From positions 744,001 to 808,000 of the forward strand of contig CP137319.1 in NCBI GenBank assembly GCA_033182465.1: a stretch of DNA of 64,000 bases. Reading direction: 5' to 3'. Both the position numbers and the translations under genes were made by a program. Positions 28,076 to 39,950 of this stretch are shown in pieces. Numbering within the stretch: position 1 is the stretch's first letter; each line of letters opens with the position of its first letter. The notes beneath the pieces are model-generated. The model was not told the DNA's origin. It made no database searches and saw only the letters and a list, made by a program, of their open reading frames with translations. The DNA comes from Sanghuangporus weigelae. Its lineage: Eukaryota; Basidiomycota; Agaricomycetes; Hymenochaetales; Hymenochaetaceae.

Positions 28076-28805
28076 TTACCGAACGCGATTGGAAGCATGA
28101 ACAGTCGAACCACTGAACGCGTCGTTTAGCGAGCTAGTGAAGGAACCTCCACTAACCTCGTTTCCAAAGTTCGCTCCGTCTCCCTTGCTGCCATTTCCGC
28201 TGATCGCGTCGCCACTTACAGAGGTTCCGCCATTGCCAGCACGGAAGGAGGCGCCATTGTCTGTGATGCTGCTGCCTTCGTCAGCGTCGATAATCACATT
28301 GCCTCCATTTGCGTTGCCCGTACTCCCGCTTGAAACATTGGCATCCTTTTCATTGCCGTCGGGATCAGTGATGCTCGATTTAAGGGACGTCATCAGGTCC
28401 ATTGCCGAAGAGCTGTCATTCAGTCCTGGCGTGAATTACATGTAAGCGTCAATAATTACAGGTGTTCCGAACAAATTATCAATAAGGTGACATACCAATC
28501 GAAGCCAAAATCGCCAACGGTACCATCACTAGGCGTAGAAGTATCCGATGTATTTGTAGCCTCTGCTGAGGCAGAAGGAGTCACTCGTGAATCTACATCT
28601 TGATGAACATCTCCCGAGCCGTTATCAACTTCATTTCTTTCTCGCCTTGCCTTTCAATAATAGTCAGTGAGTTAATCACCACGAAGAGAGAAAAGAGGAG
28701 CAATTCTAACTCTATGCAGAGATCGGCATTTGCGCACGGCGCGGAGAGTACAGAAGCAACAACAGTAGACAAGATGATAAATGTTGAAACGGAAGAGAAT
28801 CGCAT
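28076..28805 (-). CDS. SSP-A: small secreted Gly/Ser/Asn-rich protein with one repeat module
   Basis: Unknown function. Three exons (28738-28805, 28524-28645, 28076-28425) splice to 540 nt and 179 residues. Residues 1-22 form a clean signal peptide starting MRFSSVSTF and ending VLSA-P. The second exon is polar. The third begins, behind a phase-1 intron, with GLNDSSSAMDLMTSL, which resembles the first half of the SSP-B repeat (GL-D-SS-x3-DL). The rest is Gly/Asn/Ser/Asp-rich and has no cysteine. The second intron uses a GTACCG donor, chosen because it keeps the frame and restores the module; the nearby GTATGT donor would give an early stop. An upstream palindrome at 28888-28898 and an ATTATATA box (reverse strand) at 28987-28994 support a real promoter. 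Low sequence complexity means it will evolve fast. Confidence 0.65.
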
Positions 28806-30100: not shown

Positions 30101-31606
30101 TTACCTGCGAGCGGACCGGTCTAGCAACTCAAGCTCAAGCGCCGGCTGAAGACCATTGAGGAGATCTGTTATGGACGAGCTCTCATCCAAGCCTAATATT
30201 CCTTGAATCAGATGTCAGAGCTAACCAGCTAATGCTGAGTCTCACCAAGCGAACCAAGCAAGTCGCCGATGGTGCTTGAGCCCGTAGATACGAGACTCTG
30301 AATATTACCGAGAGCATTCGTTAAAGACGTATCTCTCTTCAAACCTAAAAGATGACGGCATGAGCTTCTAGTGGGGATAATTGAACACTATAACTTACCG
30401 ATTAGACCCAATAAGTTTCCGATCAAACTCGAAGAGGAGCCACCGGAAAGAAGTCCTTGAAGACTACCAACGGCGTCGGTCAAAGACGTTGCATCACTCA
30501 GGCCTGAATTACCGAACATGAACTGGATATATCATTCATGGAAAAAAGTCTTAAATTTACTAAGTTGTCCCATCAAATCACCGATTGATCCAGTCCAGCC
30601 AGTGACACCAGATAGCAAATTAAAAATGCCGCTGACGGCATCCGTAGCAGTAGATTCATCACTCAGTCCTGAAAGACGTGATCAGGAAAACCGAATATTC
30701 AAACATTAATGTGAAAGACGAACCCACTGAGCCCAACAAATCACCTATTGTATTGGATCCAGCCTCACCGGACAGGAGACCTTGGAGACCGCTTACAATA
30801 TCTGTCAAGGAGGATGCGTCGAGGCCTGGAAGTTGCCCATTGAGAACTCAATGTGTGGCTTGACGGGTATAATGGGAATTTGCACTTACCAAGGGAGCCT
30901 AGCTGGTCAGTTAATCCAGGTAAGGTAGAATTCCCGCTGGAAACGAGACCCTCGAGGCTGCCCAAAGCATCAGTAAGAGTGGAAGTGTCACTTAAACCTT
31001 TTTCGGTTGATTCAATGGGTGATCTCAATGGCGTTTACGGTTCATGCTTACCAACCGAGCCTAGTATGTCACCGACTGTTCCAGTCAAGCCGGAGAGTTC
31101 ACTGGTAAGAAAACTCTCAGCTGTACTAATTACTTCGGGCAGAGATGACCCATCGGTCAAATCTATGCAATACATGATGAACCTGCATCGCGGCTGCATC
31201 AAGTAATCATACAAGGACTAACCAAGGGAGCCGAGTAGGTCACCGATTGAACTCGTTCCAGCACCGCCAGACAAGAGTCCCTGAATGCCGCCGAGGAGGT
31301 CGGGGACAGAGGATGAATCGAGACCTAGACAGCACCACAGTTGACACTTCGCCGCCATCAATGAATTGTTAATGATACTTACCAAGTGATCCAAGGAGGT
31401 CCCCAAGCGACGTGGTAGAGACTGTGGTCTTAGTTTTAGCATCGTACCATCATTGATGAGGTAGAATCAGTTGCGTTACCTGTGGTGTTGGCATCAGCGA
31501 CCGACGTCGAGGTAGGAGATGGTGTTGCAGTTTGTGGAAACGGAGCGGCTAGAGCTGACCCAGCGAGCATAAATGAAGCAGAGACGAAGACTAATGAAAG
31601 TCGCAT
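30101..31606 (-). CDS. SSP-B: secreted protein built of seven one-exon repeats
   Basis: Unknown function. Ten exons splice to 993 nt, 330 residues: 31480-31606, 31383-31421, 31223-31324, 31052-31162, 30890-30997, 30724-30825, 30561-30668, 30399-30503, 30246-30344 and 30101-30192. Exon 1 encodes a signal peptide (MRLSLVFVSASF... ALA-A) and a Ser/Thr/Pro spacer. Exon 2 encodes the second half of a repeat (LGDLLGSL). Exons 3-9 each encode one complete repeat of 33-37 residues with consensus G-L-D-x-S-S-L-T-D-x-L-G-x-L-Q-G-L-L-S-G, then x6-IGDLLGSL. Exon 10 encodes the first half of a repeat and ends LLDRSARR. All nine introns are 53-64 nt and in phase 1, splitting the repeat-initial Gly codon (Ser or Asp in two cases). 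There is no cysteine. The Leu pattern suggests amphipathic segments and possibly a surface-active or wall protein, which is inference. Frame and phase hold through all ten exons, so the model is unlikely to be chance. Confidence 0.82.
30246..31324 (-). repeat. Tandem exon-intron repeat, seven units, inside SSP-B
   Basis: Each unit is one 99-111 nt exon plus one 53-64 nt intron, giving a period of about 155-170 bp. Exon lengths in order of transcription are 102, 111, 108, 102, 108, 105 and 99 nt, all multiples of three, flanked by phase-1 introns on both sides. Nucleotide similarity between units is visible but well diverged, so the array is not recent. Confidence 0.8.
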
Positions 31607-33234: not shown

Positions 33235-34549
33235 CTAATAGTCGGCAGCTAAGCGTCTCATGGCACGTTGGTTGCGACGGAAGCGCGCCGTGCTTGTATT
33301 GGAGCCTGTCAAGCCACCGAGGAGGCCACTCAAGGAGCCTGAGTCAGTCCCGGTCGTGCCAGACGTGAGTCCCTGAAGACCACCCAGCAAATCAGTCAAA
33401 GAAGACGTGTTGTCCAAACCTGAAGCCAAGTGTTAGATCTCTACCGGAATTATAAAAATAAAATTAGACGAAAGCTTACCAAGAAGACCCAGGAGGTCGC
33501 TGATCGAGTTCGCACCAGTAGAGTCCGTCGACCCGTCTGTAGCAGTCGCACCGGCCGCAGTATCTGTAGCAGTCGCTTCAGCCGCAGTATCTGTGGCCGT
33601 ATCCTCTGCTGCAGTGTCCGTAGCAGTTGCGTCTGCCACAGTGTCCGTAGCAGTTGCGTCTGCCACAGTGTCCGTAGCAGTCGCGTCTGCTGCAGAATCA
33701 GTAGCAGTCGCGTCTGCTGCAGTATCGGTAGCAGTTGCATCTGCCGCAGTGTCCGTATCAGTCGCTTCAGCTGCAGTATCTGTGGCCGTCTCATTTGCCG
33801 CAGCCGTGTCCTGGAACACACGATGAGCAAGGCTAACACAACTCATTTTATTCAGGAGGAAATGCAAGTACGTACGGTAGCAGCGCAATCAACTGTTACG
33901 GTGACTGTCTCAGTAGCATCGGTATTGTCATTTCCGTTCGCGTTGCCATTGCCGTTCGAGTTGTCATTTCCGTTCACATCGCCATTTCCATCCGCATTTC
34001 CATCCGCATTTCCATTATCATTGGCGTTATTGCCATTCCCCCTTTGGTGCCTTGCCTCCAAATCTGAGGCAGCGGCATCCGTAGCTGTAGCATCATCCGC
34101 ACTCGCCGTCGCAGAGTCAACAGCCGCAGCATCAGTGACTGCAGCTGAATCTGTAGCGGCAGTGTCGGTAGCCGCTGCGGAGTCAGTAGCAGCGGTATCT
34201 GTAGCCACAGCAGTATCAGTAGCAGCGGCGGTGTCCTATCGTAAGAAAGAATCAGTTAATAAATCCTAGCCGTCTCGAGAAAGACGTACTGTAGCGGCAC
34301 AAACAGTTACAGTAGACGTCGCCGCGGCGTCATTCCGGTTTCCATTGTTGTTCGCATTGGCGTTCCTCCCATTGCCGTTTCCCCTTTTTATCGCGTTTCT
34401 GGGATGTCTGGCCTGCACAGGACATTAGCTCGAAGGCCACGGTTTAGTAAGTTGTTTGTTCTCACCTCAAGCTCGAGTGGAGTTGGTGCAGCGACCGATG
34501 AACCGGCGAGTGCAAAGACTAAAGAAACGAGAGCCAAAGACAGCCTCAT
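33235..34549 (-). CDS. SSP-C: secreted low-complexity protein with duplicated block and one SSP-B module
   Basis: Unknown function. Five exons (34466-34549, 34290-34412, 33876-34235, 33480-33810, 33235-33419) splice to 1083 nt, 360 residues. Exon 1 is a signal peptide (MRLSLALVSLVF... SSVAAP) close to that of SSP-B. A block of ARHxRN, then Gly/Asn repeats, then TVTVxCAAT ending at an intron occurs twice, in exon 2 and at the end of exon 3. Exons 3-4 hold long Asp/Thr/Ala tandem repeats; exon 4 repeats the 10-mer DTAADATATD with variation. Exon 5 follows a phase-1 intron and encodes GLDNTSSLTDLLGGLQGLTSG, one SSP-B module, then a very basic tail (RFRRNQRAMRRLAADY). The other introns are phase 0. 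Only two Cys remain in the predicted mature protein, one per TVTV block. A KR pair before GNGNG might be a kexin site; this is only inferred. Confidence 0.78.
33600..33790 (-). repeat. 30-bp coding minisatellite in SSP-C
   Basis: About six tandem units of roughly 30 bp, each encoding a variant of DTAADATATD. Units differ mostly by synonymous or conservative changes (Ala/Val/Glu/Ser). Such arrays change copy number by slippage or unequal crossing-over, so length variation between strains is expected. Confidence 0.75.
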
Positions 34550-38947: not shown

Positions 38948-39950
38948 TAGCGATAAGCTGTATTCTCCATGTTTCTAATCTCTGCCGTCTCCGAGAACGG
39001 CGCTGCAGCTAGCAAGGCAATAAACATGCGACACCCCAAGAATCGTTTACAAAATGCGGTCACGTCTTCTAAGCAGGCACATGCAATCAGTTTACGTCGA
39101 TTCTTCTGTAAAATAAGAACTCTGGTCGCCCACTCAAAACTCAGCCATGCCGCTCCTCCAGAATCGGAAGAGCTGAGCACCACCTGAGCTGACATTGTCG
39201 GATGTGTCTGATCCGGGTGAAGGACCGATCGGAGCTGCCTGCCGCTGTTCGACATAATAGCGAGTAAAAAAAAAAGAAGTAATGAAACGGTATTTCTATT
39301 CACCTTCATCGCGAGGGTATCATTGGGAACGGGGCCTGGAGCAGCGGTCGCCGAACCAACTAGCGCCGCCAGCAAGATAAGCAGAAATGCAATAGTGAAA
39401 CGCATCTGTGAGGAATATTGGTTTGATATTCGAAGGATGGATTGATACTCGAGCTAAATATCTATGCTGGGATGATTATAATGACTAGAGCGTAGGGAAT
39501 TCACAATTTATACGTTCAGCGAGATCCAGACATTGAGTTGGTCTTCCGGAAAGCGAAGTGGCTGCACGAGGTGAACGGGACTACTGGCAGCAAGGCCCGG
39601 AAACAGAAATATAATTTGACCAAGCGTACATGTGTAACTTTTCTTGTCCGAAAGCAGAGGAAGCTGGTAAATTTGGCGATGAACGGATCCACGAAACCCG
39701 GGACGCAACAACTGTGCGACTGGCAGGTGCTTGTGAGAAGATACGTAGTTTTCAGAACGAAATTATCCTGGGCTGGTTGTGACACAGCTGTAGCGATCTT
39801 GCATTCTGCTTGAGCTTTACGGGCGCCGCTTTTGGGTTACATTTATTACACTTCAACGATCTTATCGTCATCGGAATCTTCGTTTGAGGCAGAAGCTCTG
39901 AGCAGTGGGCTGCCTAGTGTCTGCCTCGTTTCATGCTCGGGGTCTATCTT
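38948..39950. repeat. Segmental duplication, right copy (SSP-F plus true HGH1 3' end)
   Basis: Partner of the left copy at 37841-38900. It runs into the intact HGH1 gene, so this is probably the original arrangement and the left copy the derivative. Confidence 0.62.
39134..39405 (-). CDS. SSP-F: short secreted protein, paralogue of SSP-E
   Basis: Unknown function. Two exons (39304-39405, 39134-39244) in phase 0 splice to 213 nt, 70 residues. The signal peptide is MRFTIAFLLILLAALVGSATAA, followed by PGPVPNDTLAMK. Exon 2 begins RQAAPIGPSPGSDTSDN, parallel to RQAASNSGTDTN of SSP-E. After GGA the two differ by 5 nt, so SSP-F leaves the SSP-E frame and ends QLFRFWRSGMAEF. The other frame stays open to 38899 with SSP-E-like SSSDSGG residues, so SSP-F looks C-terminally truncated relative to the shared ancestor. 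It may be a short functional form or the start of decay. Confidence 0.5.

Follow-up and report, generated by a model that had tools for sequence, protein, structure and literature searches.

A predicted gene of Sanghuangporus weigelae with one repeat per symmetric phase-1 exon, encoding a probably secreted protein

From the sequence of a 64,000-nucleotide stretch of Sanghuangporus weigelae DNA (contig CP137319.1, positions 744,001 to 808,000; hereafter the window), we propose that a gene named SSP-B is built from seven consecutive exons, each of which encodes one complete repeat. The reading that we consider likely as a whole is that its product is a probably secreted helical-repeat protein with a surface-active or coat role, made as one full-length form, and that the array arose through old tandem duplication of an exon together with its intron. 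SSP-B lies on the minus strand (31606-30101), and its predicted ten-exon model, the exon borders of which were placed by eye and then verified via translation, specifies a protein of 330 amino acids (MRLSLVFVSASF...DRSARR). All nine are phase-1 introns of the GT..AG type, with lengths of 53-64 nt. The features of the model are as follows.

31480..31606, minus strand: exon 1, start codon, signal-peptide-like MRLSLVFVSASFMLAGSALA (judged by eye) and linker
31422..31479, minus strand: intron 1, phase 1, with ACCACAG at the exon-1 end and at the intron end
31383..31421, minus strand: exon 2, second half of a repeat, 13 aa
31325..31382, minus strand: intron 2, phase 1
31223..31324, minus strand: exon 3, repeat 1, 34 aa
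31163..31222, minus strand: intron 3, phase 1
31052..31162, minus strand: exon 4, repeat 2, 37 aa, Asp as split codon, more divergent than any other unit
30998..31051, minus strand: intron 4, phase 1
30890..30997, minus strand: exon 5, repeat 3, 36 aa
30826..30889, minus strand: intron 5, phase 1
30724..30825, minus strand: exon 6, repeat 4, 34 aa, helix-turn-helix predicted by AlphaFold2
30669..30723, minus strand: intron 6, phase 1, 5' site GTTCGT
30561..30668, minus strand: exon 7, repeat 5, 36 aa
30504..30560, minus strand: intron 7, phase 1, 5' site GTAAAT
30399..30503, minus strand: exon 8, repeat 6, 35 aa, Ser as split codon
30345..30398, minus strand: intron 8, phase 1
30246..30344, minus strand: exon 9, repeat 7, 33 aa, sole internal dibasic site (KR)
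30193..30245, minus strand: intron 9, phase 1
30101..30192, minus strand: exon 10, first half of a repeat, then a divergent tail with RR at its end, stop

Exons 3-9 are 102, 111, 108, 102, 108, 105 and 99 nt long and encode 34, 37, 36, 34, 36, 35 and 33 amino acids, respectively. The preliminary description of this locus, which had equated one exon with one repeat, is borne out for all seven full units (33-37 aa each), as is its statement that the repeat exons are multiples of three (99-111 nt) lying between phase-1 introns. The half repeats that it placed at both ends are also present, exon 2 supplying a second half and exon 10 starting with a first half. Following the split codon, the repeat consensus reads LxDxSSLTDAxGxxQGLLSGGxxxxxIGDLLGSL. 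The split codon itself, described earlier as the repeat-initial Gly, is Gly at six of the eight repeat junctions, with Asp before exon 4 and Ser before exon 8.

Several properties of the nucleotide sequence suggest that this gene structure is real. A profile made from the seven SSP-B units was searched against the six-frame translation of the window and recovered these units, its own training rows, at E-values from 7.9e-19 to 1e-13. The neighbouring gene SSP-A, which stood outside the training set, was found at E 0.0013, and the two half-repeat frames, exons 2 and 10, gave E-values of 0.014 and 0.028, respectively, slightly beyond the HMMER inclusion line; apart from the SSP-B frames and SSP-A, the top row in the window had an E-value of 0.33. 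Alignment scores for all 21 pairs of the seven units lie 3.4-11.9 SD over those of shuffled sequences. Similarity between units drops at the splice sites: among nine donors and nine acceptors (eight from SSP-B and one from SSP-A), identity at donors is 0.62 within the exon (last 12 bases) and 0.32 past intron base 6; at acceptors the intron (-24 to -5) gives 0.26, equal to chance (0.26), and the first 12 bases of the exon give 0.46. Identity at the first, second and third codon positions is 0.47, 0.75 and 0.34, respectively (36 pairs of nine units), and the protein frame therefore appears conserved. A branch-site-like YTNA occurs 13-16 nt from the 3' end in eight of nine introns, at a spacing picked after the data had been seen; intron 2 has none at this common spacing. 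Against the model, several 5' sites deviate from GTAAGT, namely GTTCGT, GTAAAT, GTAACG, GTTAGT, GTGAGA and GTAAGC. Retention of any one of the nine introns leads to a premature stop, within the intron in seven cases and shortly downstream by frame shift in two.

Upstream of SSP-B, on the same strand, lies the tandem paralogue SSP-A (34549-33235, minus strand; hand-made model), which contains 1.5 repeats. Three of its features are relevant here.

33480..33810, minus strand: SSP-A exon 4, internal array of 9-aa units followed by the half repeat NSISDLLGLLG, which ends in phase 1
33420..33479, minus strand: SSP-A intron 4, phase 1, splitting the repeat-initial Gly codon as in SSP-B
33235..33419, minus strand: SSP-A exon 5, one full repeat and basic tail

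The repeats of SSP-A are thus divided by a phase-1 intron within the same Gly codon as in SSP-B; its three other introns are in phase 0. The N-terminal 24 residues of SSP-A and SSP-B are identical at 16 positions, and the other five pairs among the four signal-peptide-like starts in the window agree at 4-9 of 24. A shuffle test placed four of the six pairs above all 2000 shuffles, three of these being starts that are not clearly related; since the test does not discriminate signal-peptide starts, the identity counts were relied upon. An alignment of the two proteins, as shortened joins, has an E-value of 4e-06, and the last exon of SSP-A clusters with exon 10 of SSP-B in the unit tree with support of 83/76, which is under the strong level. 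No match to SSP-A was found in Pfam up to E 1. Based upon the shared codon and phase, the repeat-splitting intron is probably older than the separation of SSP-A and SSP-B. The starting point may plausibly have been a layout with only one intron of this kind; unit loss in SSP-A would give the same picture. Unlike SSP-B, SSP-A expanded by an in-exon array of 9-aa units: at 33535-33803 (minus strand) one exon holds 27-nt tandem repeats (9 aa, ATDTAADAT-like) together with Asn/Gly-rich stretches. The two further signal-peptide-like starts in the window belong to reading frames that begin near 28805 (minus strand; MRFSSVSTFIILSTVVASVLSAP) and near 39405 (minus strand; MRFTIAFLLILLAALVGSATAAP), and these have 4-9 of 24 residues in common with each other, with SSP-A and with SSP-B.

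We propose that the ancestral gene carried a phase-1 intron between the second half of one repeat and the first half of the next, a form which SSP-A may still resemble, and that exon-intron units were then multiplied in tandem through unequal exchange. Copies of such a unit would stay in frame because both borders are in phase 1. Duplication of an intron-carrying unit is favoured by the occurrence of the same phase and position at eight junctions and again in SSP-A, and to this extent the earlier proposal of growth by exon-plus-intron duplication stands; no trace of the copying was found in the introns themselves. Among ten introns (nine of SSP-B and one of SSP-A), the similarity of which may be saturated, none of 45 pairs scored above shuffles at p<=0.02, and the mean score was 6.81 as compared with 6.85 for shuffled sequences. 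An exon tree and intron comparison had also been expected to yield the order of duplication, and from these none could be recovered, with none of the six inner branches of the unit tree strongly supported. Adjacent units are not more alike than non-adjacent ones (mean z 6.08 vs 7.38), giving no sign of recent local copying. dS (NG86) ranged from 0.82 to 4.64 in the 19 of 28 pairs for which it was computable (nine were not), and by this estimate synonymous sites are near saturation. Because the introns are dissimilar, dS is high and neighbours are not the closest relatives, the expansion would appear to be old and its order lost, and the exon-plus-intron step is not directly readable from the sequence. 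The introns and synonymous sites would have lost their similarity with age, and the hydrophobic helix pattern would have been retained by selection.

Alternatively, a single-exon gene that was already repeated may have received its introns separately, each at the corresponding protosplice site of its repeat. The lack of relatedness between introns in all 45 pairs agrees with this, as does a 7-nt direct repeat which flanks intron 1, but eight events at one codon position and phase would be needed, leaving no border empty, and a further one in SSP-A. The flanking repeat, moreover, is found at intron 1 alone, which is not a repeat border, the other eight introns sharing 0-1 nt. Separate insertion is a formal alternative to unit duplication which we regard as the less likely of the two and, by itself, as improbable.

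The SSP-B protein has no cysteine and no tyrosine. From residue 21 onward it consists of 20% Leu, 18% Ser and 16% Gly, and the whole protein possesses two N-glycosylation sequons and 33 acidic versus six basic residues. Near the repeat start, at the place occupied in other units by SD, TD or D, repeat 7 alone (30344-30246, minus strand) carries KR, a lone potential KEX2 site. The repeat region shows an amphipathic pattern, with a helical hydrophobic moment of 0.27 as compared with 0.194+-0.015 in shuffled sequences (none of 200 as high), and the moment at the strand-like period is not raised (0.174 vs 0.191 shuffled). AlphaFold2 analysis of one repeat (exon 6), with the six others as alignment, predicted helices at residues 3-18 and 22-32 (pLDDT 77, pTM 0.35), and the last exon of SSP-A was modelled with helices at 4-19, 28-38 and 41-58 (pLDDT 71, pTM 0.30). 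Each repeat exon thus probably specifies one helix-turn-helix, with the introns located in the turns between repeats, a view based on modest-confidence folding of one of the seven units. Against Pfam, SSP-B matched no family at the cut-off, the best being DUF2501 (10.5 bits vs a cut-off of 21), and a sequence search of the PDB returned two matches up to E 10, the better of which (0.43) was judged to be due to chance. Three of the seven repeats were used as queries against the IMG/VR and GTDB genomes and gave 45 and 84 pattern matches, respectively, none of which was confirmed by tblastn; these are viral and prokaryotic collections with little bearing on fungi.

Judged by eye from the appearance of its N-terminus, SSP-B is probably secreted, and our best guess is that it acts outside the cell as a secreted amphipathic surface-active or coat/wall protein, the length and avidity of which would be set by repeat number. 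Hydrophobins possess eight conserved cysteines, and assignment to this class was rejected on the basis of zero cysteines and no Pfam match at the cut-off. Membership of the Cin1 family, which is characterized by cysteine-rich repeats, was dismissed on the same cysteine count. The motif Y[KR]Rx[AP]x[AP], which in SP7-like effectors lies in the conserved island of the repeats, has no match in SSP-B, which contains no tyrosine.

Two other roles were weighed against that of a coat protein. SSP-B might be a host-directed repeat effector, a possibility that we view as rather unlikely. It is probably secreted, has no Pfam family and is accompanied by a tandem paralogue, but it contains neither cysteines nor the SP7 motif. 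In Venturia inaequalis, whose Cin1 repeats are reportedly about 60 aa long, Cin1 is cysteine-rich, whereas SSP-B has cysteine-free repeats of 33-37 aa. The arrangement of the genes is nevertheless comparable, the eight-repeat Cin1 gene lying beside two one-repeat Cin1-like paralogues according to PMC9632046. The SP7-like effectors of arbuscular mycorrhizal fungi are secreted proteins of 6-11 imperfect repeats, and several transcript forms are noted for SP7 (PMC4617103); their repeats are hydrophilic and carry the motif given above, and a conserved intron is reported ahead of the first repeat. A KEP/RiPP-type precursor, from which KEX2 releases repeat peptides, would also combine a signal-peptide-like start with repeats, as SSP-B does, and such proteins are described as widespread in fungi, with 22 predicted in Coprinopsis cinerea (PMC9769878). 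SSP-B differs from them in having no regular dibasic site between units: its 330 aa contain only two, a KR within one repeat (270-271) and the RR at the C-terminus, which makes processing of this type highly improbable. A secreted coat or surface-active protein is our preferred role.

As claimed previously, the units can be removed in frame, for dropping any single internal exon (2-9) preserves it in eight of eight cases. It had further been suggested that exon skipping could yield secreted proteins of many lengths. Symmetry of phase would be expected from duplication alone, and retained introns give a premature stop in all nine cases. Short introns suit intron definition, and the 53-64 nt introns of SSP-B fit this mode. 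In favour of skipping, the repeat effector SP7 has five mRNA versions (PMC4617103). For Schizophyllum commune, PMC5034255 gives, from splice junctions in coding regions, 1,527 exon-skipping events as compared with 7,851 that use alternative 5' or 3' sites, and by this count skipping in mushrooms is more than negligible; in assembled transcripts from the same source, exon skipping makes up 1% of coding-region events and intron retention 43-44%. Most likely, the normal SSP-B product is one full-length form. We therefore give little credence to the idea that the symmetric exons serve regulated skipping, and as little to a broader length switch, in which regulated skipping or the gain and loss of units between strains would provide graded-length secreted amphipathic coat proteins from one gene.

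Symmetric arrays of modules flanked by phase-1 introns are termed class 1-1. All seven full SSP-B units occupy one exon between phase-1 introns, and module and intron recur at the exon 4/5 junction of SSP-A, a recurrence confined to this tandem paralogue. SSP-B resembles the class 1-1 arrays of animals in having phase-1 introns on both sides and one module per exon; it differs in being fungal and in its short helical repeat of 33-37 aa, which occurs in two neighbouring genes of the window, and no shuffling into unrelated proteins was seen. In open full text, a weak sample of the literature, no description of repeats separated by introns was found; the repeats of gigA may be split by introns. 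Mobile domains in animal genomes prefer phase 1, and one-exon modules are present in vertebrate membrane receptors (PMC3488318).

SSP-B is a clean example of an already known kind of gene growth: a tidy, old array in a fungal gene whose product is probably secreted and matches no Pfam family. Among secreted repeat proteins it is apparently a clean fungal instance in which the borders of the repeat, of the predicted helix-turn-helix and of the exon coincide. SSP-A joins the same pair of repeat and intron with growth by in-exon micro-repeats, and the two genes permit two routes of repeat growth to be compared side by side in one family. SSP-B may also serve as a simple test case for the use of symmetric exons by fungi in grading protein length.

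Intron 1 of SSP-B (31479-31422, minus strand) displays ACCACAG in duplicate, one copy closing exon 1 and the other at the 3' end of the intron; the other eight introns share 0-1 nt in the corresponding positions. The pair may have been left when the intron was gained, through a local duplication or through break repair.

The surroundings of the two genes were screened as well. At gathering scores Rfam gave no hits in the window, and the tRNA scan none. Of 78 reading frames listed, 10 were scanned against Pfam, and eight of these matched a family (two matched none). This gene content and the many short introns are in keeping with a basidiomycete fungus. Among the matches are a DEAD-box helicase, a DNA ligase domain, Spt20, Mus7/MMS22 and mL44, and one scanned frame with a metalloenzyme match was read as a phosphoglycerate mutase.
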